Assembly: GCA_029260265.1 (NCBI GenBank)
Contig: JAJDDO010000033.1
Coordinates: 1-64,000, forward strand
Source of the DNA: Phycisphaerales bacterium
GTDB lineage: Bacteria; Planctomycetota; Phycisphaerae; Phycisphaerales; UBA1924
Direction: 5' to 3'
DNA length: 64,000 bases
The notes under the pieces are model-generated. The model ran no database searches and was not told where the DNA came from. It worked only from the letters and a program-made list of their open reading frames with translations. The position numbers were made by a program, and so were the translations under genes. The number at the start of each line of letters is the position of its first letter. Position 1 is the first letter of the stretch. Positions 1,060 through 63,703 of this stretch are shown in pieces.

Positions 1060-1233
1060 TTATGGGCATCCTGCATTGAACAACGCAAGATAGGCAAACA
1101 CATCTTGCAGATTCAATACACCAAGCGGTGCTGCAAGATCCGCAGCGGGGTCCATTGCATTGAATAATGCAAGATAAGCAAACACATCCTGCAGATTCAA
1201 CACGCCAAGCGGTGCCGCGAGATCGGCAGCACA
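1060..1233 (-). repeat. Tandem GC-type dockerin-like repeats, first protein
   Basis: Codes for two 30-residue copies, C-AADLAAPLGVLNLQDVFAYL and its near-exact repeat, joined by MDPA and closed by GCP. The DNA copies differ mainly at third codon positions. The calcium-loop acidic residues at loop positions 3 and 5 of a classical dockerin are absent. Confidence 0.8.
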
Positions 1234-3480: not shown

Positions 3481-3586
3481 TTTCAACTCCCCTATTTCTC
3501 GTTTCGATAACCTGACACACCCCCAGTAAGCATGGCAGGTGCGACTATGGTACATACCTAGGTAGTTTTGCCGAAGCAAAAAACCG

Positions 3587-3615
3587 AAAAAAGCCCGTTT
3601 TTTAACAACAGGGCT
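3587..3615 (-). terminator. Intrinsic terminator after the 519-residue surface protein gene
   Basis: On the minus strand AGCCC-T-GTT pairs with AACGGGCT around a seven-base loop and is followed by six T (A run at 3587-3592). It separates the gene ending at 3684 from the FG-GAP gene starting at 3480. Confidence 0.75.
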
Positions 3616-3683
3616 ATCTATTCACTTCTCACACGATTCAGTTGCACCGTGCAATCAACACCGATTGGTCGCGAGACACTCAG

Positions 3684-3857
3684 TTATGGGCAACCCGCGT
3701 TGAAAAGCGCGAGATATGCAAACACATCTTGCAGGTTCAGCGTACCAATCGGGTCGGCAAGGTCTGCTGCTGGATCTCCAGCATTGAACAACGCCAGATA
3801 GGCAAACACATCCTGTAGATTCAGCGTGCCAATCGGATCAGCAAGGTCCGCGGGGCA
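3684..3857 (-). repeat. Tandem GC-type dockerin-like repeats, second protein
   Basis: Two copies of DLADPIGTLNLQDVFAYLAL joined by NAGDPAA and ending in GCP. The repeat is about 85% identical in protein to the pair at 1060-1233, so four related copies sit within 2.8 kb. Confidence 0.8.
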
Positions 3858-5243
3858 TCCCAGATTGCCGAGCGAGCCGTCGGAGTTCAGATTATGAGTC
3901 TGTACATCGGACACCCCGGTATCACCGAGTTGCCAGCCCGAGATCACAAACCCGTCGCTGCTGAGCGCTGTCGTCAATCGGCTTCGCAAACCAAGATCCG
4001 ACGCGACCTCGACGGTGCCACCCGTCCACACATCACTCGAGTCCATCGCCAACGCATGGGCGAGCACACGATCGAGCCCAAACCCGCCGGCGTTCTCGAT
4101 CCACATCACGGCCAAAGCGCCATCGAGCACCTCTGTCTGGATCGAGCCCGAAGAGTTGGCATCGACTGCGGAAACTTCAATCCCGCCATCTGACCATTGA
4201 CGCGCACCCGATGCATCTATCCGCTGGGCATAAACCCCTTGGTCCGCTTGATTGTTGTTCAGTTCGATCCACGCAACCAGCACCGAATCGGTCCCCGGAT
4301 CAAAGATCGCGCGGGGCGAAACTCGCTCGGCGGCAACGGTTGACACTTCAACACCGTTGTGTGCGAACTGCTCAACCCCGCTGCTGGAGAGATGCTGCGC
4401 GTACACCTGCAAACTGTTCGCCGTGTCGTACCACGAGAACACCGCACCACCAGAACCGTCGCCCCTAAAATCGGGGAAGTTGCCGAACTGCAATGACCCA
4501 TTGTCAAAGACCGCAACCCTTGAAGCCCAGGCTTCGGTTCCATCGGAGTTCAGCTTCTGAGCGTAGAGGTGCTTGTCGGCAAAGAAAGGAGTATCTCGCT
4601 GCACCCATGAAACAATGACCGAGCCCCCGTCCGCCCCTCGGATATCCGAAACATTTATGACCTCTCCTCCGGGATCCGTAAGCACCGTTGTCCAGCTGAC
4701 CGCACCTGTCGCGTCAAGCCCGACAAAGTGCGAATCGTTGTTATTGATCCATCCCACAACACAACCGCCATCCGATGTCCCCGCAACCACCGGCGCTGCG
4801 ACAAAGTCTGAGCCGTTGGCGAACTGAACCCCGTTTGCGCCCCACATCATGGATCCATCGGGCGACACACGCTGCGCAGTAATCCGATCCCCCACGAACC
4901 GATCATCGCGAAAGACGATCAGAGCGTTTCCTACGGAATCGACATCCAGCCCGTAGTCCTGCGTCGATGAGTATCCACGGTCTGCGACAAGAACGCCGTT
5001 GTGGGCCCACATCTCGTTGCCGGAAGCGTCGAGTCGTTGGAGCCGAACATCATATCCGCTCACGCTGGTGAACCAACTCACATACGCCCCGCCATCGGGC
5101 GTGGGCACGATCTTCGGCTGAACCTGCTCTCCGGCGCCGTCGGCCACCACCTGATGCATCGTCGAATCCGTCGACCACTGCCCATACGCCGAAGAAACAA
5201 CACCCAGCATACACACGAACGAAACTGCACAGACTCTTCTCAT
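3684..5243 (-). CDS. Secreted repeat protein with C-terminal GC-type dockerin
   Basis: 519 residues with a signal peptide (MRRVCAVSFVCMLGVVSSAYG) and GGAG ten bases before the ATG. The body has at least six repeats of a strand pattern D-x-x-G-x-x-x-W-x-x-x-G-V (DASGNEMWAHNGV, SPDGSMMWGANGV, DASGARQWSDGGI). This suggests a beta-propeller of seven or so blades of the kind found in uncharacterised secreted proteins. The C-terminal 57 residues are two copies of ADLADPIGTLNLQDVFAYLALFNAG ending in GCP, the same dockerin-like tail as the next gene downstream. No catalytic motif is seen; substrate and role are unknown. The gene is bounded by terminators on both sides, so it is likely transcribed alone. 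Confidence 0.82.
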   Translation of the reverse strand: MRRVCAVSFVCMLGVVSSAYGQWSTDSTMHQVVADGAGEQVQPKIVPTPDGGAYVSWFTSVSGYDVRLQRLDASGNEMWAHNGVLVADRGYSSTQDYGLDVDSVGNALIVFRDDRFVGDRITAQRVSPDGSMMWGANGVQFANGSDFVAAPVVAGTSDGGCVVGWINNNDSHFVGLDATGAVSWTTVLTDPGGEVINVSDIRGADGGSVIVSWVQRDTPFFADKHLYAQKLNSDGTEAWASRVAVFDNGSLQFGNFPDFRGDGSGGAVFSWYDTANSLQVYAQHLSSSGVEQFAHNGVEVSTVAAERVSPRAIFDPGTDSVLVAWIELNNNQADQGVYAQRIDASGARQWSDGGIEVSAVDANSSGSIQTEVLDGALAVMWIENAGGFGLDRVLAHALAMDSSDVWTGGTVEVASDLGLRSRLTTALSSDGFVISGWQLGDTGVSDVQTHNLNSDGSLGNLGCPADLADPIGTLNLQDVFAYLALFNAGDPAADLADPIGTLNLQDVFAYLALFNAGCP

Positions 5244-20696: not shown

Positions 20697-22697
20697 TCAA
20701 TGCGCTGAGGTTACGCGGAGAACTTCTTGGATGCTGGTCAGCCCGCTGGTGGCTTTGTTGATGCCGTCTTGGCGGAGTGACTTCATCCCGCGTTCGAGGC
20801 ACATCCTGCGGAACTCGGACACATTCGGATTTCGCGCGATCACATCGCGCAGCGAATCGTCCACCGCGAGCATCTCGTAGATGCCAACCCGCCCCGCGTA
20901 GCCCGTTGAGCGGCACTTGTCGCACCCGCTTGGCACCCAGAGCTGATCGCTGGGCAGCCCGTTCATCTCAAGAAACTCTGCCATCTCTTCGCTTGGGGCT
21001 TCTTGCATCTTGCAGCTTGGGCAGAGCCTGCGGAGCAGGCGCTGGGCGAGAACGCCGTTGACCGCAGCACCAACGAGGAAAGGCTCGAGCCCGATATTGA
21101 CCAGCCGCGTCACCGAGCTCGGAGCATCATTGGTGTGCAAGGTTGAGAGCACAAGGTGACCAGTCAGTGCCGCTTGAACCGCGGTGTGAGCGGTTTCATG
21201 GTCACGAATTTCACCGAGCATGATGACATCGGGGTCCTGGCGGAGCAGGGCCTTGAGCGCCTTGGCGAAGGTCATATCGATCTTGGCGTGGGTCTGGGTC
21301 TGGGTGATCCCGTCGAGGTGGTATTCAATCGGGTCTTCGACCGTCGAGACATTGAGCCTGCCCTTATCGATCTGACGTAGCGACGAATACAGCGTGGTGG
21401 TTTTACCAGAACCGGTCGGTCCGGTCACCAGCACGATCCCGTGCGGCTGGTGGATCTGGGTCTTCCAAATATCGAGTGTATGATCGTCGAATCCGAGGTC
21501 TTCGAGCTGCACATTAATTGATTTGGTATCGAGGATACGCATCACGATCTTCTCGCCGTATCCGGTGGGAAGTGTTGAGACACGCAGGTCCAGTTTTCGC
21601 CCCTGAACCACACAACGGATTCGCCCATCTTGAGGCACGCGCCGCTCGGAGATATCAAGCTCGGCCATGATTTTGAGCCTTGATGTGATCGCTGCTGTCA
21701 TCTGCGGCGGCGGGTTCATGGACTCAAACAGAATCCCGTCGATACGCAGACGCACCTTGATTTTCTTCTCGCCCGGTTCAATATGAATATCCGACGCGCC
21801 CTCTTTGACCGCATTCTGGATGATGTAGTTCACATAGCGGATAACTGGCGACTCGCCCGCTTGCGTTTCGAGGTCGACCGCGTCTGCGCTCTGCACGCTG
21901 GTGACCTCGACATCGGCTTCGTCGACATCGGCGAGGATCTCCGAGAGGTTCATCTCGACCTCGGTGCCCCCGCCCATCTGTTCGAGCGCCCATTGCACAT
22001 CGCCGGGCGTCAGCATCACGAGCTTGACACCCGAGACACCGAGGTTGGATTTAATCTCATCGATCGCAAACACATCATCTGCACGAACCGAGCCCACGAC
22101 CGCGCGGAGCCCTTCTGATCGCAATGGGATGACGAGGTGTGCACCACAGAAATCGGTGCCGAGCCTCTGCATGAGCTTGCCGTCGAACCCCCCGTCAATC
22201 CCTTTCGCACGGTCGATACGCTCGAACGAGAGCCCGAACCCGGCTGCGAGTGTGCTCTGGATTGCTTCCTCGTCGGCTTCTTGCTCAAAGAGGATCTCGA
22301 TAAGATCACGCCCGGGTGATTGCCGGAGCACCTGCTCGGCCATGGCCATAGCTTCGGAACTCACCGCGCCCGCTTCGAGCAGCATATCGCGGAGGGTGTC
22401 GATGTCCTGATCTTCAGTCCCGTCATCGCGTTGATAGATATCGGTAACCGCGTCGCTGATGTTTGCATCGCGAGCGGATGGACGATGATGGAGGACCGCG
22501 GGGTCATTGCCGGTGTCGTCGCCCTCTTCGTCACCGTAGAGCCGCTGTCCGGATGGCATCGAGGGCAGGTTTCCGAATGATCCGGTGCGTCGATCGATCG
22601 TGTGGCGATCGCTAGGCAGCGCCCTCATTTTTCGTTTAGGCCGATCCTTCTCAGAGCCCACCCCAAGCTCATTCAAGATGTCATCAATATCTGCCAT
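20697..22697 (-). CDS. Type IV pilus/type II secretion assembly ATPase (PilB/GspE)
   Basis: 666 residues, ATG with GGAG five bases upstream. The hexameric cytoplasmic motor powers pilus extension or pseudopilus assembly. The N-terminal 100 residues are a low-complexity acidic linker, followed by MshEN-like regions (about 100-280). The ATPase core has Walker A GPTGSGKTTTLYSSL, the Asp box ISTVEDPIEYH-like stretch, Walker B IMLGEIRDHETAHTAVQAALTGH and the His box STLHTNDAPSSVTRL. The zinc motif is present as CPSCKMQ followed later by CDKC, as in GspE/PilB. It closes the pilM-N-O-P-like operon, 36 bases after the previous stop. Confidence 0.95.
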   Translation of the reverse strand: MADIDDILNELGVGSEKDRPKRKMRALPSDRHTIDRRTGSFGNLPSMPSGQRLYGDEEGDDTGNDPAVLHHRPSARDANISDAVTDIYQRDDGTEDQDIDTLRDMLLEAGAVSSEAMAMAEQVLRQSPGRDLIEILFEQEADEEAIQSTLAAGFGLSFERIDRAKGIDGGFDGKLMQRLGTDFCGAHLVIPLRSEGLRAVVGSVRADDVFAIDEIKSNLGVSGVKLVMLTPGDVQWALEQMGGGTEVEMNLSEILADVDEADVEVTSVQSADAVDLETQAGESPVIRYVNYIIQNAVKEGASDIHIEPGEKKIKVRLRIDGILFESMNPPPQMTAAITSRLKIMAELDISERRVPQDGRIRCVVQGRKLDLRVSTLPTGYGEKIVMRILDTKSINVQLEDLGFDDHTLDIWKTQIHQPHGIVLVTGPTGSGKTTTLYSSLRQIDKGRLNVSTVEDPIEYHLDGITQTQTHAKIDMTFAKALKALLRQDPDVIMLGEIRDHETAHTAVQAALTGHLVLSTLHTNDAPSSVTRLVNIGLEPFLVGAAVNGVLAQRLLRRLCPSCKMQEAPSEEMAEFLEMNGLPSDQLWVPSGCDKCRSTGYAGRVGIYEMLAVDDSLRDVIARNPNVSEFRRMCLERGMKSLRQDGINKATSGLTSIQEVLRVTSAH

Positions 22698-22733
22698 TGG
22701 GTCTCCGTCCCGTGCTGAATCGTGTGGGTGTTT

Positions 22734-23450
22734 TCAATCGACGAGTTTGGGTTCTTGCCCCATCGAGAGCTCGTACTGCACGCCATCGGCCTCGATGAGG
22801 ACCGCGCGGCCCGTGATCTCGATCACCGTAAAGAAGTCGCCCAGTTCCATCCCCGCACGAACAGCACGCCCAGAGATGCGCGCTGCGGGTCTCTTGCCAC
22901 CGATCACGCCCTGGAGTTCAAAGTTGTACAGCTCTGATTCGATCGCGTTCACCCGCGCCTGACGCGCGTTGTCAAAGTCCTGCTGGCGTTCCCACTCGAG
23001 GCGCTCGGCATCACTCATGCCCGGATCAGCGACCGATGCCTCCGCGACCGTGTCGCGAGCGAACGGATGCTCGGGCATCTTGATCGAATCATTAAACTGC
23101 ATGACATGCGAGCTCTCGTTGAGCGCGCCGAGCACCTGGTTGAATCGTTTAGTGCTCTCAGAGGCCGATCCCTCGGCGGTGTAATCGATCGTGACCGCGT
23201 TCTCGTCAAGCCCGGCGGCCATGCCCATGTAGCGCATCCCGTACACCGAAACAACCCCGACCAGCAGCACCATGGCGGCGATCAGCACTTGGTTGTCCAC
23301 CTTTGATTTCTTCGGGCCGTGCAGCTCAGATCCCGGGCCCTGATTGAGCGACGGGATCCCGGTTGTCGGATCTTTGTGTGTGAGGTTGACGAAGACCTTG
23401 TTGGCGGTCTCGTTGGGCTCGCCGTCCTGTGGCATGATTGAGTTGCTCAT
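22734..23450 (-). CDS. Bitopic pilus/secretion alignment protein, PilP/GspC-like position
   Basis: 238 residues. A cytoplasmic N-terminus of about 55 residues precedes one membrane segment (NQVLIAAMVLLVGVVSVYGM) and an outside domain. Residues 170-238 (YNFELQGVIGGKRPAARISGR, then GDFFTVIEITGRAVLIEADG) fit the HR domain of GspC or the beta domain of PilP, which touch the secretin. The start overlaps the pilO stop by four bases. Its place after pilM-pilN-pilO is where pilP is expected. Sequence similarity to PilP is not obvious by eye, so the name is positional. Confidence 0.7.
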   Translation of the reverse strand: MSNSIMPQDGEPNETANKVFVNLTHKDPTTGIPSLNQGPGSELHGPKKSKVDNQVLIAAMVLLVGVVSVYGMRYMGMAAGLDENAVTIDYTAEGSASESTKRFNQVLGALNESSHVMQFNDSIKMPEHPFARDTVAEASVADPGMSDAERLEWERQQDFDNARQARVNAIESELYNFELQGVIGGKRPAARISGRAVRAGMELGDFFTVIEITGRAVLIEADGVQYELSMGQEPKLVD

Positions 23451-23998
23451 GAATCACCCCCGGTGGCAATCGCGTTCTGGAAGTAAATGCTCAGCGTGAA
23501 TGATGCTTCGAGCTCGGTGTCGTCGGAGGTTGAATCCGCCAGCTGCATATCCACGATCCGTGTGATACGCGGGAGCTGCTCGATCTTGACGAGGAACTTG
23601 TAGAAACCGTCGAATGATCCGGTGGTCTTCATCTCTAGCGGCTGCTCTTTGTACCACGCCGCCTCGATCGGCTTTGTGCTTTTGAGCGATGGCGGGGTCA
23701 GCCCGGCTTCGATCGCCAAGGCCGAGACCTGGCGGATGATCTGATCGACCTCCTTGCCCGATGGGAGCAGGGCTTCCATCTCGTCGATGCGGTCGACGAG
23801 CTCTTGGTTGACAATCTTCAGATCGGTGTTGCGGGCGGTCTCGTTGCGGAGCTTGCTGAGCATCTCTTGCTTGTGGATGATCTCCGCCTTGGCTTTGTTG
23901 ATGTTCGCGGTCTGCGGGCGGAAGACGACAAAGTAGCTCACAACCGGCAACAACAGCACCGAAAGAAACAGAATAAGTTCACGGGGTCCAAATCGCAT
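23447..23998 (-). CDS. PilO-like type IV pilus inner membrane assembly protein
   Basis: 183 residues. One N-terminal membrane segment (ELILFLSVLLLPVVSYFVVF) is followed by a coiled coil (about 30-75, INKAKAEIIHKQEMLSKLRNE) and a ferredoxin-like periplasmic domain. In that domain, LLPSGKEVDQIIRQVSALA and MKTTGSFDGFYKFLVKIEQLPRI are the typical PilO blocks. PilO pairs with PilN in the alignment subcomplex of the pilus machine. It lies 21 bases after pilN and overlaps the next gene. Confidence 0.88.
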   Translation of the reverse strand: MRFGPRELILFLSVLLLPVVSYFVVFRPQTANINKAKAEIIHKQEMLSKLRNETARNTDLKIVNQELVDRIDEMEALLPSGKEVDQIIRQVSALAIEAGLTPPSLKSTKPIEAAWYKEQPLEMKTTGSFDGFYKFLVKIEQLPRITRIVDMQLADSTSDDTELEASFTLSIYFQNAIATGGDS

Positions 23999-24019
23999 AG
24001 TAACGCTCCTGATTCGTGC

Positions 24020-24811
24020 TTAGTCGGTGGTTGATTCTTCGCCGGCGATTCCAAACCCGCCGGTATTGACCTCGACCTGCTCGGTGTCGGCGAGCATCTT
24101 TGCATCCGCCTTGGCGGTGATGCTGAGGGTGATATTGAACTTCCGGTAATCTTGTTTATCGATCATGGTGTTGTCGATGAATCGCAGCTCGACATCCTTG
24201 AACAACACTGAGTCTTTCAGAAAACTCAAGAAATCGGCGACCTCATCGTTGTTCGAGGCGATACCCTCGAGTGTCATCACATACTTAAACTTTGGTGCGT
24301 GGACCTTGACCTTGACGGGCTTGGATTCTTCTCCTTTGCCCACGCCACGGTTGGTCAACGAGCCTTTTTTCACGGCCTTCTTCTTGGGGTCGATCTTGGG
24401 CTCTGGCAGTTTGACGCGTTCGCCGTCGAGGTCGATGCGTGTCATGACCATCCCGCTGGGGATGCCCCGTACGATCTCGCCGATCAGCACGCTGCGCGGA
24501 ACGCGGTCCTTCAGCGCGGTCACGATCTCTGCTCGTTCGAGCAGGTGATCTCGTTGTTTTTCGAGTTCTTTGAGCTGGTCGATCTTGCCCGCTTCTTCGG
24601 TGAAGGCGGCCTGCACGGTTTCCTGCTCATTGTGAACCTGACGCCAACGCTGATGATTGACAAAGAACGCACCAATCACGCCGGCGAGCACGAGCACGAA
24701 CAGCAGCATCGCCATCAGCGATGCCCGCACCTGCCCCTTGCCCTTGACATACTCTGCGGGAAGAAAGCTCCCGGCTTTGTCGTTGTTCGCACTTGTTGAA
24801 GACTTATCCAT
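24020..24811 (-). CDS. PilN-like type IV pilus assembly protein
   Basis: 263 residues. Like PilN it begins with a short cytoplasmic tail (SFLPAEYVKGK, similar to the NLLPWR motif that binds PilM), then one membrane helix (ASLMAMLLFVLVLAGVIGAFF), a coiled coil (about 60-115) and a ferredoxin-like domain. A Lys-rich stretch (about 145-175) interrupts the periplasmic part. Adjacent pilM upstream and pilO downstream support the role. Confidence 0.85.
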   Translation of the reverse strand: MDKSSTSANNDKAGSFLPAEYVKGKGQVRASLMAMLLFVLVLAGVIGAFFVNHQRWRQVHNEQETVQAAFTEEAGKIDQLKELEKQRDHLLERAEIVTALKDRVPRSVLIGEIVRGIPSGMVMTRIDLDGERVKLPEPKIDPKKKAVKKGSLTNRGVGKGEESKPVKVKVHAPKFKYVMTLEGIASNNDEVADFLSFLKDSVLFKDVELRFIDNTMIDKQDYRKFNITLSITAKADAKMLADTEQVEVNTGGFGIAGEESTTD

Positions 24812-24833
24812 TCGTCACTCCACACTGGTTCAG

Positions 24834-26054
24834 TTACAGATCCGTCGGGATCAACGCGCCACCGACTACCGACGCCCATCCTGGCTGGGCATCGCTGAGA
24901 TCGATCCCGCTGGTGGGGATCTTCCCGGTTCGACCCAGGCACGCGAGCGGGTCGACGCTCTGTGCGCTCATATTCAGTTTTCTCGCGATGTGCTCGCAGA
25001 CCGATACCTGCTTGGACAACCCGCCGACAAAGAGAACCTTGCCGATCGGGGTACCCGGGAACAGAGAACGGTGGTACCGCAGGCACATCGACACCTCATC
25101 GGTCATGATCTCGAGCGCCTCGCCCAGATCAACCCGCGGCCCAACTGGACCGGGCATCGCCGGCTTCTGTGCAACAGGCTCTGATGATTCAACTGGTTCG
25201 GGTGCTGGAGGCATCCCGGGCATTGATTCGGATGCCGTCTCTGCAACCGCGACCGTTGCGGGCTCTGGAATGAGCACCTCAAGCCCTTGGCGGATCTCGC
25301 GTGCTTCGAGCATCGTGCATCTGAGCTGATGGCAGATCGAGTCATCAAAATGCATCGCGCCGTGTTCGATTGATCGGGCGAATACCGTCCGCTCGCCGTG
25401 CATGATGAGCACATTGGTCGTTGAGCATCCCATGTCGAGCACGAGCACGGGGCGGGCACCTTCATCAGCACCCGCTCTTGTATTGATCGATTGGGCGATG
25501 GCTTCAAACTCGTTGTGGATCCCGACCGGTTCGAGCTTGGCGCTCTTCAGCGTGCCCATCAGCCTGCCGACGAACTCACGCGAGGCGCCGTAGGTAATCA
25601 CTTCTCGTTTCGCCCCACTCTTGGATCCCTCTACGCAGTTGCACCGGACGAGCAATGCCGACGGATCGCACCCGATCTGCGACGCCAGATGCCCGCTGGC
25701 GAGGTCTTCAATCGCGACGCCTTCGATCTGCTGGATCTGGAAATGCTTGCACACCATCTGCCCGACCGGGATCATGCAAACCGCGCGATTGGTCTTGAAC
25801 TTCCCCGAAGAGATCAGCTTGGGCAACGCTTCCATCTGGAAAAGCAACCGCCTGGAGGGCGTTGTGAGCAGATCGTCGGGTGTCGTCAGCTGAGACGCGG
25901 CAGCGATCATCGGCTGATCAGAGCCCGTCAGCTGCAGCACCTTGAGTGATCCAACCCCGAAATCAATCGAGAGCGGATACCCACCCGGGCGCATAGCACG
26001 GACATTGGTCCGCACCGATGAACCGATCTTCTTGAGTTTGGGTTTGCGTTTCAC
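24834..26054 (-). CDS. PilM-like actin-fold type IV pilus assembly protein
   Basis: 406 residues from the GTG at 26054, which has AGGGG nine bases upstream; a TTG 15 codons earlier is open but lacks a ribosome site. PilM is a cytoplasmic actin-like ATP-binding protein that holds the PilN tail. Motifs are SIDFGVGSLKVLQL (phosphate-1), the SHS2-like middle part, LVLDMGCSTTNVLIMH (phosphate-2) and VLFVGGLSKQVSVCEHIARKL near the end. A proline-rich insert (about 265-300, MPPAPEPVESSEPV) is unusual. It heads the operon pilM-pilN-pilO-pilP-like-pilB. Confidence 0.88.
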   Translation of the reverse strand: MKRKPKLKKIGSSVRTNVRAMRPGGYPLSIDFGVGSLKVLQLTGSDQPMIAAASQLTTPDDLLTTPSRRLLFQMEALPKLISSGKFKTNRAVCMIPVGQMVCKHFQIQQIEGVAIEDLASGHLASQIGCDPSALLVRCNCVEGSKSGAKREVITYGASREFVGRLMGTLKSAKLEPVGIHNEFEAIAQSINTRAGADEGARPVLVLDMGCSTTNVLIMHGERTVFARSIEHGAMHFDDSICHQLRCTMLEAREIRQGLEVLIPEPATVAVAETASESMPGMPPAPEPVESSEPVAQKPAMPGPVGPRVDLGEALEIMTDEVSMCLRYHRSLFPGTPIGKVLFVGGLSKQVSVCEHIARKLNMSAQSVDPLACLGRTGKIPTSGIDLSDAQPGWASVVGGALIPTDL

Positions 26055-26245
26055 GAAGACGAACCCCTTTCCACCCGGCGTCGAGCACAGGACACCCAAG
26101 ATCGGCGAGCGCCGGATCTATCGTCCTTCTCGTGAGATCGGCCCGATGGGATCCCGAGTTCAGTATGGATTTGCATCCCCGCTCTCGGGAGAGACTCTGC
26201 AACTCTGAGCCCGCATATATCGGCATAGACAGAACAGCCCCCGGT

Positions 26246-53763: not shown

Positions 53764-54288
53764 ATGATGACGCTTTCACGAACCATCTCGATCCTCCTGC
53801 TCTCGGTGCTCACAATCCTCAGCGGATGCGCCGCTTCTCCTGCCCTCTCGATGCCCGACGCTGCCCCCGCGGACTTTGTTCTCGCCGTCACGGTCTACGC
53901 CCAAAACGCCGATGCCAATCCCCGTCCCACCGCGATGGTCCCCGCGAGGTACATCCTCGAGACCGACGCGACCCTTCGCGTCTCGGTCGGGCCCGGATCA
54001 TCCGCGAGCAGCTTCCCGCGTCCGATGCGGAATCTGAACACCGTTCAACTTGAACGATGCTGGCAACTGGTGCGGGCGATCGGGCTCGATCAGCAAACCC
54101 TTGACGAAGCCATCCGCCCGGTGTCGAGCCCGGAAATCTACTCTCCCAGCGATGAGCACGAGGTGGTCTACCTGCTCGAGATCAGATCACTCAACACCCA
54201 GCACGCCTACGAAATCAATCCCGGCAACCCTGGCGCGCGTGCACTGGTCGAACACCTCGCAAGCCTTGGATGGCTCAGGGCTGATTAA
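53764..54288 (+). CDS. Lipoprotein of unknown function
   Basis: 174 residues; a second ATG one codon later is possible. The signal sequence ends in a lipobox ILSGC (Cys21), so the mature protein is anchored in the membrane. The ectodomain (about 30-174) is compact and soluble, with a central VLAVTVYAQNADANPRPTAMVPARYIL segment and a C-terminal NPGARALVEHLASLGWLRAD. No known motif is visible. It is divergent from pheT with 42 bases between starts, and 40 bases separate its stop from the Hsp70 gene that follows on the same strand. Confidence 0.75.
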   Translation: MMTLSRTISILLLSVLTILSGCAASPALSMPDAAPADFVLAVTVYAQNADANPRPTAMVPARYILETDATLRVSVGPGSSASSFPRPMRNLNTVQLERCWQLVRAIGLDQQTLDEAIRPVSSPEIYSPSDEHEVVYLLEIRSLNTQHAYEINPGNPGARALVEHLASLGWLRAD

Positions 54289-54328
54289 GAATACACTCCG
54301 ACCCAAGAACCCCCTACCCTTCCTTTCT

Positions 54329-56239
54329 ATGGGTACCACTGATCCATCCACGCCGCCGACCATCATCGGCATCGACCTGGGCACCACCAACTCACTCGTG
54401 GCGTTTTGTGATGAATCCGGACCCAAGATCCTTGGGATCGAGCATGATCCCATCCTCCCCTCCGCGGTCCGGTTCAACCCCGACGGCTCGACCACCATCG
54501 GGACCCAGGCACGCGACCAGGCCCCCGCTTATCCCGCCAGCACCATCACCTCAGTCAAGCGGCTGATGGGTCGATCGCTCGAAGATATCAAAGATGATCT
54601 GCCGTTCCTCGGATACCGTGTCACCGAAGGCGATCATGACACCGCAAGGATCATCATCGAGCACCCAAACCAGAGCCCCATCAACACAACTCCTCAGCAG
54701 GTGTCGGCGATCATCCTTGGCGAGCTCAAGGCCCGCGCCGAAGCATCATTAGGGAAACCAATTGACAAAGCCGTGGTCACGGTGCCGGCATACTTCGACG
54801 ACGCCCAACGACAGGCGACCCGCGACAGCGGACGCATCGCCGGGCTCGAAATCGTCCGAATCGTCAACGAACCAACCGCAGCCGCGCTTGCCTATGGCAT
54901 CGGCGAACAGCAAACCAAGAAGCCCAAAGACATCGCCATATTCGATCTCGGCGGGGGAACCTTCGATGTCTCCATCCTCCGGCTCATCCCCGCTGAAGAC
55001 GAGAACACTCCGGCGTTCTTTCAGGTGCTCGCCACCGCAGGCGACACCCACCTTGGAGGCGACGATGTCGACCAGATGATCGTGGGGCTGTTTATCCGCG
55101 AGATCAACAACCAACTCGGCGTTGGGGCATCGCCCGACATGGGCCGATTTGACGCATCCACACGCCGAGCCTTGATCCGGTTCGCCCAATCAATCAAGCA
55201 CACGCTCTCGACCCAGGACCACGCCCGCGTCGAGATTGCCCTCGGCAATGACCAGAGCTACGCACGCACGATCACGCGTGATGAGTTCGAAGAAATGATC
55301 GGTCCCTGGGTCGAGCGGTCACTCCAAGCGTGCAAGCGCGCGATGCTTGATGCGGAAACTCAGCTGGACACCGCCGGGCTCAGTGCGGTGGTGATGGTCG
55401 GTGGATCGACACGGATCCCGCTTGTGCGCGATCGTGTTGGTGCATTCTTTGGGCTTGCGCCCTACACCGCCCTGGATCCGGATCGCATCGTGGCGCTCGG
55501 AGCTGCAGTCCAGGCTGCGATCCTCGCAGGCACCCGCACGGGCGAGTTGCTCGTCGATGTCATCCCGCTCTCGTTGGGCATCGAGACCGCGGGCGGCGCG
55601 GTCGCCAAGCTCATCATGCGCAACTCCCCTGTCCCAACACGCGCGACCGAACGGTTCAGCACCTCGGTCGATGGACAGACCAATATCAAGATGCATGTGC
55701 TTCAGGGCGAACGCGAGATGGTCGAGGACTGCCGATCGCTCGGAGTCTTTGAGCTCCGCGGCATCCCGCCGATGCCCGCCGGAATCCCCAAGCTCGTCGT
55801 CGAGTTCCTGGTCGATGCCAACGCGGTGCTGAGTGTATCGGCGACCGAAGAGCGATCCGGCAAGCGCGCCACCATCCAGATAGTTCCGAACCACGGGCTC
55901 ACCAAGGGCGAGGTCGATCGGATGGAAGCCGAGAGCCTCACCCACGCCCGCGAGGACATGACCAGGCACCAGATCGCCGACCTGATCGTCAACGCCAAGC
56001 TTGACCTCAGATGGATCTCGCAGAGATTTGAAGCACACAGAGACCAGCTCGATGAAGCGTACCGAACGCGGCTGCAAGAGCTGATCAACGAGCTGAGCGG
56101 GTTCGTTGATCGTGCCCAAAATGATTGGTCATCGGTCGAGCCGAATGCCTTTCATCAGGCCAAAGAATCGCTCGACCACGCATCCATCAGATTACAAGAG
56201 ATCTCGATCGCGAGCTCATTGCGCGAAGAGAATACATGA
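54329..56239 (+). CDS. HscA-like Hsp70 chaperone
   Basis: 636 residues from the ATG at 54329. The nucleotide-binding domain (about 10-385) has IIGIDLGTTNSLVAFCDE, VTVPAYFDDAQRQATRDSG, FDLGGGTFDVSIL and VVMVGGSTRIPLVRD. The substrate-binding domain follows (DVIPLSLGIETAGG, then VEFLVDANAVLSVSATE). It lacks the DnaK C-terminal EEVD. This size and the missing tail fit HscA-type or other specialised Hsp70s more than DnaK. HscA acts in iron-sulfur cluster transfer with HscB, but no hscB, iscU or iscS is near, so that role is unproven. The TGA overlaps the transporter ATG, so the two are coupled. Confidence 0.87.
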   Translation: MGTTDPSTPPTIIGIDLGTTNSLVAFCDESGPKILGIEHDPILPSAVRFNPDGSTTIGTQARDQAPAYPASTITSVKRLMGRSLEDIKDDLPFLGYRVTEGDHDTARIIIEHPNQSPINTTPQQVSAIILGELKARAEASLGKPIDKAVVTVPAYFDDAQRQATRDSGRIAGLEIVRIVNEPTAAALAYGIGEQQTKKPKDIAIFDLGGGTFDVSILRLIPAEDENTPAFFQVLATAGDTHLGGDDVDQMIVGLFIREINNQLGVGASPDMGRFDASTRRALIRFAQSIKHTLSTQDHARVEIALGNDQSYARTITRDEFEEMIGPWVERSLQACKRAMLDAETQLDTAGLSAVVMVGGSTRIPLVRDRVGAFFGLAPYTALDPDRIVALGAAVQAAILAGTRTGELLVDVIPLSLGIETAGGAVAKLIMRNSPVPTRATERFSTSVDGQTNIKMHVLQGEREMVEDCRSLGVFELRGIPPMPAGIPKLVVEFLVDANAVLSVSATEERSGKRATIQIVPNHGLTKGEVDRMEAESLTHAREDMTRHQIADLIVNAKLDLRWISQRFEAHRDQLDEAYRTRLQELINELSGFVDRAQNDWSSVEPNAFHQAKESLDHASIRLQEISIASSLREENT

Positions 56240-57924: not shown

Positions 57925-60096
57925 ATGCGCGATCAAATCTTCAAAGCGTTCATTATCACCCTATCCGCTCTTTCGCTCACCGGCTCGACGCCCGCGATCG
58001 GCGATGAGGTCAACCACGATCTGACCGAGTATGTCCTCTACGCGGGCGGCGACATCTCTTTTCGAGAACGCATCACCGTGACCGGACACATCGGCGCAGG
58101 GCGGAACATCACCTTTCGCGAAGACTGCACCGTCAACGGCGGGGTCTACCTCGGCAACGATTTCAGCTCCCGTGAACGCGTCACCTTCAGCGGCGATATC
58201 CTCGGCGGCAACAACATGTCGTTGAGTTCCGATATCAAGGTCGCGGGCAGTGTTATGGCGCCGGGCAGTATCAGTATACAGAGCCGTGCTCATATCGCGG
58301 GCGATGTGATTGCGGGCGAAAAACTCTGGGCCGCCCAGGGCGCGGTGATTGATGGGTCTCAGCTCGACTACACCAAACCAACCGATCACTGGGTGCAAGA
58401 GTCTGTCACCTTCCCGAGCTTCAAGCCCGGCAGTAAGAACCTCAGCCTTGGCTCAAAAACCACGCACGCAATCGACCCGGGGAACTACCAAGACCTCAGT
58501 GTCGGGGCATCGAGCACGGTCAAACTCCGCACGGGCGTATACCATTTTCGCAATGTCTCGACGCGAGAGCATTTCAAATGGGAGTTCGACGACTCCAACG
58601 GACCGATCGTGATGCATGTCTCCGGGAATATGTCCTCCCGCGAAAACACCACCTTCACACCCAGCTCAGGCAGCGCCGATGGGTTGATCCTGTGGGTCAA
58701 CGGCAGCTTGTCATTCCGTGAAAAAAACAAGTTCACCGGGCAGATCCGTGCAAAGAGCAACATCTCATTCAGAGAGCGATTCGAGATGACGGGCACGGCA
58801 TATTCGAGCAGCAATATTTCCTTGCGTGAGGATAGCAAGTTCAAAAACGCTTCGAAGCCGCCCGTTTACTATGTCCGCGCCAAGGGCTCGGACTCAAATG
58901 ATGGCTCGACACCTGGAACGGCGTTCCGTTCGATCCAGCGGGCGGTCAACAGCTGCGTCGCCGCCGGTTCGACCATCTATGTGGGACCGGGCGAGTACCG
59001 AGAGCTGATCGAGATCGGGGCGGGCGCGGGTGTTGCTGCTGTTTCTGGCAACGAATCCAGACCAAACCGGATCATCGCCGACACAAAGGGCGCGTTCACC
59101 AAGGACGACCCAGGCAAAGTCGTCATCAACGGGCAGGGCTCACGGACACACGCGATGAAGGTGACCAGCAGGGTCGACTGGATCCTCGACGGGTTTGATT
59201 TTGTTGGGCAGCGTGATTACACCATCCAGGCAACCAACTCGGGGATGAAGATCCGCCGATGCATCTTCGATGTGCCCAGGCTCTATGCGATCTACATCAC
59301 CTCGCTCGGTGACACCGAGATTGAATCGTGCACCTTCGAGCGCGATTCGGACTCCGCGCATTCGATCTGGGTCCAGCCGGCCAATACAACAGAGCCGGTC
59401 TCGATTTCCATCACCCGAAACGACATCACGCTCGATGGCAAGAAGTGGATGAGCTCCGGGCTCGAAAACGGGTGGAACTACAGAACAAACCGGCTCGCCT
59501 ACGGGATTGTTGTCTACGGCGCGTGGAGCAACAGCAAGATTGCGAATGTTGATGTTTCCAACAATGTGGTCTCTGATTGTTACCTCCCGATCTATTGGGC
59601 CGGTACAACTCAAAGAGAGTACCGTGCGGTGATCGCCAACAACACCGTCACCGGCTCGTTCTACAGCATCTATGCGTATTCGTACTCCAACAGTAACTCG
59701 ATCGTGATCAATAACATTATCGAATCGTGCTACTTCGGGCTCCACACCTACGGATACGCGGGCAAGCCGCCTGTGGTCACCGCGCTCATCGAGAACAACA
59801 TCACCTTCGGCATGGAACGGTACCGCAGGGCGTACGAACTCGACATTATTCATGGCGATCCGATGTTCATGGACCCCGCGAACGGCGATTTCTCGCTCAA
59901 GCAGGGCTCGCCGGGCATCGACGCGGGCACCTCACGCAATGCCCCTGCAACTGATATCGCCGGTCGCTCTCGTCCGAGTGACGGAGACAAGGACGGTGTC
60001 GCGCAGCATGACCTCGGCGCGTACGAAGTCATCAATACTGCCGAGCGGGTGCGCGTTGTCCATTGGAATGAAATCGGCGGCGATCACAACAAATGA
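57925..60096 (+). CDS. Secreted protein with FRE-type repeats, beta-helix and WNEIGGDHNK tail
   Basis: 723 residues with a signal peptide (about 1-26, MRDQIFKAFIITLSALSLTG). Residues 40-310 contain at least seven short repeats centred on [ST][FSL]RE followed by a charged residue (SFRER 45-49, TFRED 63-67, SSRER 81-85, and later SSREN, SFREK, SFRER, SLRED), spaced about 18 residues in the first group. They read like bactofilin- or beta-helix-type rungs. Residues from about 313 (YYVRAKGSDSNDGSTPGTAF) enter a DUF1565/right-handed beta-helix of the pectate-lyase-like class, with IYVGPGEYREL and SIVINNIIESCYFGL rungs. The last 16 residues are RVRVVHWNEIGGDHNK, shared with the next gene. No catalytic Asp cluster can be assigned. 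Confidence 0.82.
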   Translation: MRDQIFKAFIITLSALSLTGSTPAIGDEVNHDLTEYVLYAGGDISFRERITVTGHIGAGRNITFREDCTVNGGVYLGNDFSSRERVTFSGDILGGNNMSLSSDIKVAGSVMAPGSISIQSRAHIAGDVIAGEKLWAAQGAVIDGSQLDYTKPTDHWVQESVTFPSFKPGSKNLSLGSKTTHAIDPGNYQDLSVGASSTVKLRTGVYHFRNVSTREHFKWEFDDSNGPIVMHVSGNMSSRENTTFTPSSGSADGLILWVNGSLSFREKNKFTGQIRAKSNISFRERFEMTGTAYSSSNISLREDSKFKNASKPPVYYVRAKGSDSNDGSTPGTAFRSIQRAVNSCVAAGSTIYVGPGEYRELIEIGAGAGVAAVSGNESRPNRIIADTKGAFTKDDPGKVVINGQGSRTHAMKVTSRVDWILDGFDFVGQRDYTIQATNSGMKIRRCIFDVPRLYAIYITSLGDTEIESCTFERDSDSAHSIWVQPANTTEPVSISITRNDITLDGKKWMSSGLENGWNYRTNRLAYGIVVYGAWSNSKIANVDVSNNVVSDCYLPIYWAGTTQREYRAVIANNTVTGSFYSIYAYSYSNSNSIVINNIIESCYFGLHTYGYAGKPPVVTALIENNITFGMERYRRAYELDIIHGDPMFMDPANGDFSLKQGSPGIDAGTSRNAPATDIAGRSRPSDGDKDGVAQHDLGAYEVINTAERVRVVHWNEIGGDHNK
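60046..60096 (+). other. Shared C-terminal tail, first copy
   Basis: Codes for RVRVVHWNEIGGDHNK and stop. The same tail with one E-for-H and one R-for-K change ends the next protein at 63653-63703. Synonymous differences show that it is kept at the protein level. Confidence 0.7.
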
Positions 60097-60226
60097 ACCG
60101 CGCTATCGGACCAACGAACTCTGCACACTATTGATTACAGGTAGAGACCGTCATCACAATGCTGATTTGTGGGCATTTTGCCCGACCACGATTGACATCA
60201 ATACGCTTTCCCCCGATTGAGTGGGT

Positions 60227-63200
60227 ATGCGTCCACACAGATCCATTTTGATGATGCTTGCGCTTTGGTTGTGCCTGATCGGCACTTGTGCGCCTGCCAT
60301 TGGTTCTGACCCGGCTCCCTCGACGCCCGGGCTCCGTGCCTATTGGAACACCAATGCCCGGACCGCGTCCAAACTCGGGCAGGTCGACTGGGAGATTTAC
60401 GACTCGATCACCATCGTCGAAGACATCAACTTCCCGCGTTCTCGCAATGCGTTCTATTCTGACGGACCGACAGACTACTTTGCGGTTCGGATCGTCGGGC
60501 AGATTGATATCCCCGCGGAGGGGATCTGGTCGATCCGTCTCGAGTCCGACCAAGGCGCCCGGTTGTGGATCGACGGCGAGTTGCTCATCAACGATGGAAC
60601 AAGCCACTCGTACCGCTCAAAGACCGGGATCATCTCGCTCACCGCCGGGTTGCACGACATCGAGGTTCGCTACTGGGAGGGGTGGTCCGACGCAGGGCTT
60701 GTCCTGCATTGGGATGGGCCGACGGTTGGAACAGAGGAAGTCATCCCCGCATCCGCGTTCTCGTACCCGGCGGAAGAACAGGTTTATGACCCGGGCGGCG
60801 ACGGGATCTGGGCATACTGGTTTGACAACGCCCGACACGCAAGCAACTTTGGGCAGATCGACTGGAACAGCGCAGACCTGGTCAACACCGTCCAGCGACC
60901 CAGCTACCGCGCCACACGCGGCGGCTTCCGTGTCGGCGGACCGAGCGACTACTTCGGAGTTCGATTCTTCGGGCTTATCAATATCGACGAAGACAACGAA
61001 GGCACCTGGACTTTCGAGCTTGGCTCGGATCAGTCCGGTGCGTTATTTATCGACGGCATCATGGTTGTTGCAGACCCATCAGGGCACAGCTTCCGATGGA
61101 GAACCGGCACGATCGATCTCGACGAGGGTGACCACACCATCGAGGTCCGGTACTGGGAGGGATGGTCCAACGCGGCTCTGCATGTCGCGTGGAAAGGTCC
61201 AAACGATGACCACACACAGATTATCCCATCGAGCGCATTCCGCCCGGGATCGGGAGCAACCAACCCGGCGTCCGGCGGAGGGCTGCACGCCTACCGATAC
61301 AACAACGCCAGGCACGCCAGCGGCGTAGGGCAGATTGACTGGGCCGACCACGACTCGATGGAAACCATCCAGAATGTTTATTGGCCGAGAACTCGTAGCG
61401 CGTTCTTCACCGGTGGTCCGAGCGATTATGTCGCTACGCGAACCGTTGGCAAGGTCAATATCCCGCGGAGCGGGCAATGGAGCTTCGGGCTCGGGTCTGA
61501 TCAGTCTGCGCGGATGTACATTGACGGCGTCCCCATTATTGATGACCCCTCGAGCCATTCGTTCCGTTGGACATATGGCATCAAGAACCTGACGGCCGGT
61601 GAACACGACATCGAGATCCAGCACTGGGAAGGATGGTCCGATGCGGGACTGGTCGCCACCTGGAAGGGGCCCGGCGATACCTTTGAGCAGGTGATCCCCG
61701 CATCAGCGCTCTCACCGAATGACGAAGACCCCCCCCTGGGCATCGGCGGCGACGGGCTTCGGGTATATTGGGTGGATAGCGCACGGCATGCATCGAAGGT
61801 CGGGCACATCGACTGGCAGAACTACGACCGGATGACCTATGAAGCCAATATCTCTTGGCCGATCACACGCAGCCCGTTTGTGGGCACCACAATCACGAAC
61901 AAGAACGGAAGCCAACAATCCGAAGGCGGGGTATCTTCGGATTACTTCGGGCTTCGGGCCGCTGGAAAAATCAATATCCCGAGCGATGGAAACTGGTACT
62001 TTAATCTCGGTGCGGACCAGTCTGCGCAGCTCTTTATTGATGGACAGATGGTGATCAACGACGATATCAGCCATTCTTACCGATGGCGGAGCGGCACGAT
62101 CGAGCTGACCCAAGGGCTCCACGACTTTGAGGTAAGGTACTGGGAGGGGTGGTCCGACGCGGGGCTGGTCGTCTCTTGGAAACCGCCCGGCGGCGTCGAA
62201 TCAGTGATCCCACCGAGCGCGTTCTCGCACAGCGCAACCGAGGTTCCGTTCGACTCTGGTGGCGGCGGGCTCCGCGCCTATTGGACGAGTTCCGCGCGCC
62301 ATGCGTCCAACGCCGGGCAGATCAACTACGCCGAGCATTCACACGCGACCACGGTGCCCAATGTGTACTGGCCGATCACACGATCCGCATTTGATGACGA
62401 CACCCCAGCCGATTACTACGGGCTGCGCGTGCTCGGGCAGATCGATGTGCCCGCCGACGGAACATGGACCTTCTCGATGGGTTCGGACCAGAGCGCCATC
62501 CTGCTGATTGATGGCGAGGAGGTCGTTGTCGATCTCTCAAGCCACAGCTACCGCTGGCGTGGCGGGTCGATCGCGCTCACAGAGGGCAAGCATGATATCG
62601 AGATCCGCTACTGGGAGGGGTGGTCGGACGCCGGGCTCGCGCTCGCATGGCGTGGTCCGGGTGTGCCGACGGACATCATCATCCCCCGCACCGCGTATTC
62701 ATTGCACGAAACCGAGTCCCCATTCGAAACCGGCGGCGGTGTTCGCGCCTACTGGACCGCCAGCGCTCGTCACGCATCGAACGCGGGTCAGATTGACTAC
62801 GCCGAGCACTCGTCTACCACCATTGTGGAGAATGTCGCCTGGTCGATTACCCGAAGCCCGTTCTACCTCGACGGGCCGAGCGATTACTATGGGCTCCGGC
62901 TGATCAGCCAACTCACCATCGACGAGAGCGGGACATGGACATTCAATCTCGGCTCTGACCAGAGCGGGATCCTTTTGATCGATGATCAGCCTGTCGTTGT
63001 TGATACCTCGAGCCATTCATACCGCTGGCGATCGGGCACCGTCGAGCTTGCTGAAGGCACGCACAAGTTCGAGGTCCGGTACTGGGAAGGATGGTCGGAC
63101 GCGGGGCTCAATGTCACCTGGCGTGGCCCGAGCGATTCATATGAAGAGATCATCCCGGCCAGCGCGTTCAACGCCTACGACCCAGAGCCGGCGTTTGACG

Positions 63201-63703
63201 CGGGCGAAGCCTCGATCGCTGTCGGCTGGCACAGCTCTCGCGGGTACACACTCGAGAATCTTGATTGGAATGCGCCGATCAAATCCACCGTCGAGCCACG
63301 GATCAGCTGGAACATCACCCGCTCGCCGTTCATCACCGGCGTACCCTCGGACTACTTTGCCCTCCGAGCAACCGGGAAACTGATCATCCCCCGCACCGGC
63401 ACATGGACCTTCGGGCTCGGATCAGATCAGTACGCGATTCTGTCGATCGACGGGCGGGTTGTGGTCAACGACCCGAGCAGCCATTCGTACCGATGGCGGT
63501 CGGGCACGATCGAACTCGCTGCCGGCGAGCACGACCTAGAAGTTAAGTACATGGACGGCTGGTCGAACGCCGGGTTGTTCATGACATGGCGTGGGCCGGG
63601 CGATCAGTTCGAGACGGTTGTCCCCGCCAGCGCGTTTGTGCCAAGGAACGCACGCGTCCGCGTGGTCGAATGGAACGAGATCGGCGGCGATCACAATCGG
63701 TGA
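60227..63703 (+). CDS. Secreted protein of seven PA14-like repeats with WNEIGGDHNR tail
   Basis: 1158 residues from the ATG at 60227; a GTG two codons upstream is also open. A signal peptide (MRPHRSILMMLALWLCLIG, cleaved near PAIGS) is followed by seven repeats of 148-171 residues. Each has the pattern G-x-x-AYW-x-x-x-ARHAS-x-x-GQIDW, then DYFGLR-x-x-G-x-I-x-IP, LGSDQSA-x-L-x-IDG, HSYRWRSGTI, GxHDIEVRYWEGWSDAGL and WxGP...EVIPASAF. This is the PA14 beta-barrel layout, used to bind sugars in fungal adhesins and glycosidases. The last repeat is the most divergent (MDGWS for WEGWS). The protein ends in RVRVVEWNEIGGDHNR, as does its upstream neighbour. Inferred role: glycan-binding surface adhesin. 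Confidence 0.88.
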   Translation: MRPHRSILMMLALWLCLIGTCAPAIGSDPAPSTPGLRAYWNTNARTASKLGQVDWEIYDSITIVEDINFPRSRNAFYSDGPTDYFAVRIVGQIDIPAEGIWSIRLESDQGARLWIDGELLINDGTSHSYRSKTGIISLTAGLHDIEVRYWEGWSDAGLVLHWDGPTVGTEEVIPASAFSYPAEEQVYDPGGDGIWAYWFDNARHASNFGQIDWNSADLVNTVQRPSYRATRGGFRVGGPSDYFGVRFFGLINIDEDNEGTWTFELGSDQSGALFIDGIMVVADPSGHSFRWRTGTIDLDEGDHTIEVRYWEGWSNAALHVAWKGPNDDHTQIIPSSAFRPGSGATNPASGGGLHAYRYNNARHASGVGQIDWADHDSMETIQNVYWPRTRSAFFTGGPSDYVATRTVGKVNIPRSGQWSFGLGSDQSARMYIDGVPIIDDPSSHSFRWTYGIKNLTAGEHDIEIQHWEGWSDAGLVATWKGPGDTFEQVIPASALSPNDEDPPLGIGGDGLRVYWVDSARHASKVGHIDWQNYDRMTYEANISWPITRSPFVGTTITNKNGSQQSEGGVSSDYFGLRAAGKINIPSDGNWYFNLGADQSAQLFIDGQMVINDDISHSYRWRSGTIELTQGLHDFEVRYWEGWSDAGLVVSWKPPGGVESVIPPSAFSHSATEVPFDSGGGGLRAYWTSSARHASNAGQINYAEHSHATTVPNVYWPITRSAFDDDTPADYYGLRVLGQIDVPADGTWTFSMGSDQSAILLIDGEEVVVDLSSHSYRWRGGSIALTEGKHDIEIRYWEGWSDAGLALAWRGPGVPTDIIIPRTAYSLHETESPFETGGGVRAYWTASARHASNAGQIDYAEHSSTTIVENVAWSITRSPFYLDGPSDYYGLRLISQLTIDESGTWTFNLGSDQSGILLIDDQPVVVDTSSHSYRWRSGTVELAEGTHKFEVRYWEGWSDAGLNVTWRGPSDSYEEIIPASAFNAYDPEPAFDAGEASIAVGWHSSRGYTLENLDWNAPIKSTVEPRISWNITRSPFITGVPSDYFALRATGKLIIPRTGTWTFGLGSDQYAILSIDGRVVVNDPSSHSYRWRSGTIELAAGEHDLEVKYMDGWSNAGLFMTWRGPGDQFETVVPASAFVPRNARVRVVEWNEIGGDHNR
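60329..63652 (+). repeat. Seven tandem PA14-like domain repeats
   Basis: Repeat starts at 60329, 60803, 61280, 61754, 62267, 62738 and 63209. Repeats 2-6 are the most alike, with ARHAS, GQIDW/Y, SHSYRWR and RYWEGWSDAGL kept. Parts of the DNA, such as the segment coding for YWEGWSDAGL, are nearly identical between copies, which would favour recombination and change in copy number. Confidence 0.85.
63653..63703 (+). other. Shared C-terminal tail, second copy
   Basis: Codes for RVRVVEWNEIGGDHNR and stop, matching the tail at 60046-60096 in 14 of 16 residues although the two proteins are otherwise unrelated. Confidence 0.7.

Follow-up and report, generated by a model that had tools for sequence, protein, structure and literature searches.

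A C-terminal tail shared by unrelated exported proteins of Phycisphaerales, a probable docking strand for the tip of a type II secretion-like pseudopilus

Why should two large exported proteins that are otherwise unrelated end in the same sixteen residues? The question is raised by two adjoining genes in a stretch of 64,000 nucleotides, called the window here, from a Phycisphaerales bacterium (GenBank assembly GCA_029260265.1, contig JAJDDO010000033.1, positions 1 to 64,000). An original prediction, made from the window alone, held that their products (proteins 1 and 2) are alike only in the last 16 residues, that 14 of these match, and that both copies run up to the stop codon. BLASTP agrees: residues 708-723 of protein 1 match residues 1145-1160 of protein 2 at 14 of the 16 positions (pairwise E = 9e-6), and it finds nothing significant between the rest of the two proteins, the next-best segment having E = 1.2. 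The shared tail is real. My proposal, to which I give a probability of about 0.6, is that a type II secretion-like pseudopilus uses it as a docking strand at its tip. In related bacteria the tail marks proteins that are encoded in the operon beside the tip-like subunit, K, or are fused to K, and its probable role is to plug large proteins of the cell surface onto that tip.

The tail is not confined to the window. Homologues of protein 1 in related genomes have the same kind of end on a protein that otherwise differs (for example, RVRVVQWREIGAETND, RVRVVRWREIGTEHNR, RRLRLVEWREVGVQRE and SLRILQWNEIEPN), and the relatives of protein 2 at seven named loci come from five Phycisphaerales, one Phycisphaeraceae and one Planctomycetota, all of them metagenome-assembled genomes. 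A profile of 21 tails finds one to three places each in 56 of 151 relatives at E <= 0.1, some of them by chance. With a profile of 37 tails, in which two columns, W and E, are invariant, 74 of 400 genomes of the order give 95 places between them at E <= 0.02. Surroundings were taken for 93 of the 95 (G325 and G372 were left out), and in 78 of the 93, spread over 64 of the 400 genomes, the tail lies no more than 12 residues from the stop in a frame of 150 amino acids (aa) or more. The 78 do not include 7 places whose frames are shorter than 150 aa (one belongs to the G062 operon) or 8 that lie further from the stop, of which that in G008 looks real. Except where a start is named, a frame extends from one stop to the next, which leaves its length and start uncertain, and with the simple gene-calling script antisense frames occur. 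Many of the 78 supplied rows to the profiles; family f2 (G271, G285, G305, G313 and G394) supplied none. As had been predicted, then, the tail is conserved as protein, recurring at the C-terminus of otherwise unrelated exported proteins. A search of the open-access literature found no paper on it.

Where do the genes for these proteins lie? Sorted by surroundings, 48 of the 78 frames have an Hsp70-like gene within 4.5 kb, 14 belong to a pseudopilus operon, 2 are themselves fused K proteins and 14 are near neither. The operon frames, found in 12 genomes (G025, G027, G035, G038, G049, G063, G067, G071, G075, G079, G125 and G313), come from genera other than that of the window, in the same and other families. 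They stand between or beside the K/PilX-like and L/PilM-like genes in the order PilZ-GspE-GspF-GspG-GspH-GspI-GspJ-K-[tail protein]-L/PilM-M/PilO-C, the exceptions being G049, where one of two tail genes is ahead of K, and G027, where the tail gene is on the opposite strand. The names K, L/PilM, M/PilO and C were assigned by gene order and motif. The Pfam matches agree with this operon type: in the window's own genome, which also has four secretin places, they include T2SSE (E = 2.5e-128) and T2SSF (E = 1.5e-46), and G, H, I and J have N-methylation motifs. Matches for K are weak (PilX_N, E 0.001-0.08), L has only a weak FtsA match, and M and C have nothing clear. In all 36 K rows read by eye, the fifth residue past the apparent cleavage site is something other than Glu, and a passage of one review takes the absence of Glu5 as the mark of a tip subunit (PMC10191384).

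The K gene itself sometimes carries the tail. Among 49 K frames, read by eye from a table after three short ones misplaced by the script's motif had been reassigned, also by eye, 39 are short and without a tail, one is short with a tail-like end (G052), and nine are long. Two of the K proteins hold pilin part, insert and tail in a single chain: that of G271, with two LamG stretches, ends ARSLRIVSWQEVEPN, and that of G305, with an NHL propeller, ends VTALVVLRWQEVEPQ. Both are canonical tails exactly at the end, and neither genome supplied rows to the tail profiles. The K proteins of G062, G120 and G052 end in weaker W-x-E/D versions (the G120 end was one row of a separate script profile, not of profile A3). 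By Pfam, the K proteins of G120, G107 and G109 carry PA14 and DUF7305, the domains of the two window proteins. One passenger is found in both arrangements: G313 has it as a separate protein that bears a signal and a tail of its own, and over 420 aa, tail region included, this protein shares 58% identity with the part of the G062 K protein past the pilin domain. Long K/PilX-like minor pseudopilins with PA14 and DUF7305, LamG, NHL or unassigned domains were seen at loci L163, L162, L169, L213, L216 and L156, and are modular and tip-like. G271 has, besides, two more tail proteins in tandem (L212:1-4628), on another contig than its fused K gene and with the identical end PRIISWTEVDPHYP; one is a 374-aa frame cut by the start of the contig, the other has 1239 aa with nine DUF7483 stretches.

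A predicted structure suggests what the tail may do in a fused protein. In the AlphaFold2 model of the G052 K protein (36 sequences, mean pLDDT 89) one long helix is followed by strands at 95-105, 108-117 and 120-132, and the tail-like end forms a fourth strand at 135-144 with pLDDT 91-93. The turn of two residues past strand three suggests a hairpin with the fourth. In this one K protein, then, formation of the strand in cis is predicted, and the short K proteins, aligned by eye, end near the position of strand three.

The tail sequences would fit such a role. Counting from W in 76 distinct tails, W and E (+2) are present in all 76, while 69 have R or K at -4, 73 have V, I or L at -3, and 64 have I or V at +3; the constancy of W and E is partly built in because the frames were chosen by a profile holding these columns. 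The consensus is [VL]-[RK]-[VI]-[VI]-x-W-x-E-[IV] plus a few more residues, and a hydrophobic stretch followed by W-x-E would be expected of an edge beta-strand.

The model that I favor is as follows. The short K, a PilX/GspK-like and tip-like minor pseudopilin, would have a pilin-domain sheet without its last strand. The missing strand would be held by large Sec-exported passengers (beta-helix, PA14, FG-GAP, DUF7305 and others) as their last residues, and it would be inserted into K by beta-strand addition, in cis in the fused proteins and, presumably, in trans from separate passengers. A passenger that inserts its tail strand into K would therefore sit on the tip of the pseudopilus, to be pushed out or displayed there as an adhesive or carbohydrate-binding head. 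What supports the docking strand is the C-terminal position of the tail, the slot that it occupies within or next to the operon in several genera, the fused K proteins that end in it, and the one passenger that is both separate and fused. A bolder version, to which I give a little less than even odds, is that Phycisphaerales have turned the final strand of the tip pseudopilin into a portable tag for C-termini, that any exported fold ending in the tag could become a tip head, and that lineages switch between heads in cis and heads in trans.

Several points weigh against the docking strand and have to be set beside this evidence. The L/PilM marker, present in 150 of the 400, is found in 60 of 64 genomes with a strict tail against 90 of 336 others (Fisher p = 6e-25), an association of tail and operon that speaks for the docking strand but carries no correction for the relatedness of the genomes. 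Four genomes with a strict tail (G010, G046, G123 and G153) have no L/PilM match, nor did a search with the L protein of the window's own genome, a weak single query with 31-32% identity to two that were found, give any in these four; the tails of G046 and G153 may be chance. Conversely, 71 genomes have a strong marker and no strict tail, among them G028 and G034, whose operons were read. In a few of these (G008, G052, G062 and G120) there is a tail that is weaker or displaced. The persistence of the operon therefore does not need the tail. The operon occurs without a tail in G013, of the same genus as the window, and both tail and marker are missing from G005 and G019. The operon of the window's genome (G000:C17) has an empty slot, L beginning 20 bp after K with no tail gene between, and in the window's genus and much of its family it is the Hsp70-like gene, not the operon, that the tail genes adjoin (the 48 of 78). 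This adjacency is probably synteny, and for that reason the Hsp70-like gene was set aside as a candidate for the functional partner. In the window's own genus the link between tail and operon rests on analogy. The 14 frames near neither landmark add to the difficulty, as do two operons (L165 and L167) in which no K frame was found.

The fused proteins and the structural model have weaknesses too. Of the nine, 4 of the fused K proteins have W-x-E/D in their last 16 residues: the G107 end has W alone, that of G070 has W-x-E starting 17 residues from the end, and that of G109 has none. G025 and G038 have a K with a PA14 domain (by Pfam in G038, by BLAST clustering with PA14 proteins in G025) and no tail, with a separate tail protein next to it in each. 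The G052 model is of one chain, with a weak end missed by the profile, and the strand with which that end pairs is not visible in it. Foldseek returned nothing for this model at E <= 0.001; ComZ of Thermus stands at rank 2 with E 0.23, among designed and unrelated folds.

Table 1. Features of the window at and near the tail genes
Feature	Coordinates	Strand	Remarks
Exported protein 1 (P0001, 723 aa)	57925..60096	+	N-terminal signal by eye; Pfam, NCBIfam, AlphaFold2, Foldseek
Parts of protein 1, in order			signal, ice-binding/DUF7305-type beta-solenoid, second right-handed beta-helix, choice-of-anchor Q segment, tail
Tail of protein 1, RVRVVHWNEIGGDHNK	60046..60093	+	terminates at stop; profile match E 2.4e-8
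Exported protein 2 (P0002, 1160 aa, GTG start)	60221..63703	+	seven PA14 stretches and the tail; signal read by eye
Tail of protein 2, RVRVVEWNEIGGDHNR	63653..63700	+	terminates at stop; profile match E 2.4e-7
DnaK/Hsp70-like gene (name by eye, start uncertain)	54050..56239	+	neighbour of tail genes across several genera

Of the two window proteins (Table 1), neither has a pilin N-terminus by eye, and Pfam (E <= 1) finds the C-terminal domain of PilC/PilY1 in neither. It does find DUF7305, Ice_binding and Beta_helix in protein 1 and the PA14 stretches in protein 2, and in both proteins the best-scoring stretches stop ahead of the tail (the best stretch per family is the one listed). The NCBIfam "choice-of-anchor Q" domain occupies 655-702 of protein 1, directly ahead of the tail, and no NCBIfam family matches either C-terminal piece alone at E <= 10. 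Could the tail be the edge of a known domain? None was seen in the two collections used, Pfam and NCBIfam. AlphaFold2 (13 sequences) models protein 1 mostly as beta-strands, with two solenoid-like parts that Foldseek likens to PL6 and GH136-type beta-helices and ice-binding proteins; residues 686-723, which include the tail, have pLDDT under 50 and no confident structure. In the window's own genome the two strong places of the 21-tail profile are the two known tails, and the next match has E 0.09.

Some matches elsewhere were not accepted as tails. Among 392 genomes drawn from the phylum, the 37-tail profile matches in 10 at E <= 0.01, six of them outside the order; none of these six is in a frame of at least 150 aa ending no more than 12 residues from the stop, and they are taken as chance. 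C-termini of the type V-I-D-W-D-E-I-S-R-R, picked up near the operon at eight loci by a loose regular expression, score under 6 bits in the profile and were rejected. The proteins that end in this way are presumably superoxide dismutases: a superoxide dismutase-like gene lies about 3 kb past the PilZ end of the operon at the eight loci (L137, L138, L139, L140, L141, L147, L152 and L153), a chance mimic of the tail.

What else might the tail be? It might serve this machine as a secretion signal, which the pseudopilus or the secretin would read at export, after which the passenger would be released and nothing would remain docked. This is the main rival, and I think it unlikely. The operon evidence serves it as well as it serves docking, type IVb pili are described in part of one paper as using for secretion a signal peptide that is short, has a key aromatic residue and is bound by the minor pilin (PMC9565799), and the recruitment of substrates to type II secretion is called elusive in a passage of another (PMC7949064). 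It sits badly with the tails that end K proteins, which are themselves parts of the pseudopilus and should need no such signal. An improbable variant keeps the docking and changes the partner: the tail would bind minor pilins of some other type IV filament, at least in the window's genus. The window has a second set of type IV filament genes, about 32 kb from the tail genes (20697-26099, minus strand; by eye, a GspE/PilB-like ATPase and PilM-like and PilO-like proteins), and these PilB/PilM-type genes would be candidates. The tail genes of this genus are unlinked to the type II-like operon, and in G010 and G123 tails occur although the operon marker is missing, as such a variant would have it; the linkage and fusion seen in other genera point to K of the type II-like operon.

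The original prediction went further than the likeness of the two ends and saw in the tail a sorting or anchoring tag, which in its general form would be processed by a membrane enzyme. The extreme C-terminal position on unrelated exported proteins and the choice-of-anchor domain ahead of the tail in protein 1 speak for this. I find it quite improbable: carrier genomes have one to three tail copies, often at a single locus, so that the tail is not a genome-wide sorting tag; no hydrophobic helix is seen in it by eye; and its recurrent neighbors are the pseudopilus operon and the Hsp70-like gene, of which the operon is the sensible one. No enzyme partner appears among the clustered conserved neighbors, though no search was aimed at transpeptidases or at enzyme genes elsewhere in the genome. 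The predicted difference from the PEP-CTERM-like and dockerin-like ends in the window stands when these are compared by eye. Among the latter are two adjoining exported proteins (1060-5243, minus strand) whose C-termini consist of duplicated segments that closely resemble each other, (A)(D/A)PIGTLNLQDVFAYLALFNAGCP-like; by eye they look dockerin-like and unlike the tail. Finally, the tail might have no function at all, having been copied between neighboring genes or inherited from a common ancestor. Tail genes are indeed often neighbors, and in the window 37 of 48 bases of the two tails agree. I regard this as very improbable. The invariant W and E persist while several other positions vary (with the qualification given above), and the tails end unrelated folds. 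Only 8 of the 16 codons are identical, so that 6 of the 14 identical residues are encoded by different codons, synonymous differences that the original prediction had already remarked on. The flanking bases, with 21 of 60 agreeing before the tails and 19 of 60 after, do not match.

If the tail has become a portable docking strand for the pseudopilus tip, type II secretion-like machines would gain an equivalent of PilY1 and a cargo signal short enough to be recognized in sequence, for a process whose cargo recruitment is called elusive in the passage cited (PMC7949064). The tip proteins of uncultured planctomycetes could be listed from sequence. A specific and cheap test is possible, with one strand, two conserved residues and one partner.

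How does this compare with systems already known? The tags of the PEP-CTERM type consist of a C-terminal hydrophobic helix and a basic cluster. Like them and similar tags, the tail occupies the C-terminus of unrelated exported proteins; unlike PEP-CTERM, it has no membrane helix, few copies, no NCBIfam match and no enzyme partner among its conserved neighbors. The operon resembles that of the type II pseudopilus (GspG-K) in gene order, in T2SSE and T2SSF, in pseudopilins with N-methylation motifs and in a K without Glu5, and differs from it in that several K proteins carry PA14, LamG, NHL or DUF7305 and that passengers are encoded beside K. The type IVb signal of TcpF and CofJ, as presented in part of PMC9565799, is comparable, being a short peptide in which an aromatic residue is essential and by which an exported protein is hooked to the minor pilin; that peptide is N-terminal and lies at a trimer interface, whereas the tail is C-terminal.

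Two known systems come closer. ComZ of Thermus is a GspK-like pilin with a solenoid of the ice-binding type inserted between its last two strands, according to a section of PMC6561018. In this it is like the fused K proteins that carry DUF7305. ComZ is a single chain, whereas in the window the solenoid and the proposed last strand belong to a separate exported protein; its layout would be the cis version of the window's two pieces. PilY1 is the other. In the portions of PMC11046646 and PMC13190605 that deal with it, the models extend the sheet of PilX by a strand made of eight C-terminal residues of PilY1, and a similar strand-addition model for the minor pilin pair PilA-PilC appears in part of PMC9934059. 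PilY1/PilC is thus a non-pilin exported protein, often encoded with minor pilins, for which a C-terminal strand model exists (same portions of PMC11046646 and PMC13190605), and the tail proteins may be comparable, the strand being predicted, in cis, for one K protein. The trait of being encoded with minor pilins belongs to the 14 of 78 frames in the operon and the 2 on K, in genera other than the window's; unlinked pilY1 genes also exist, as a passage of PMC13190605 has it. The differences are that the Phycisphaerales passengers have only the tail in common and that their operon is type II secretion-like, a kind of system from which PilY1 is said to be absent in the part of a review that treats it (PMC10191384). 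The best reading of the tail is a PilY1-PilX arrangement in which the strand is all that the passengers share, and the principle would then extend to proteins with nothing else in common.

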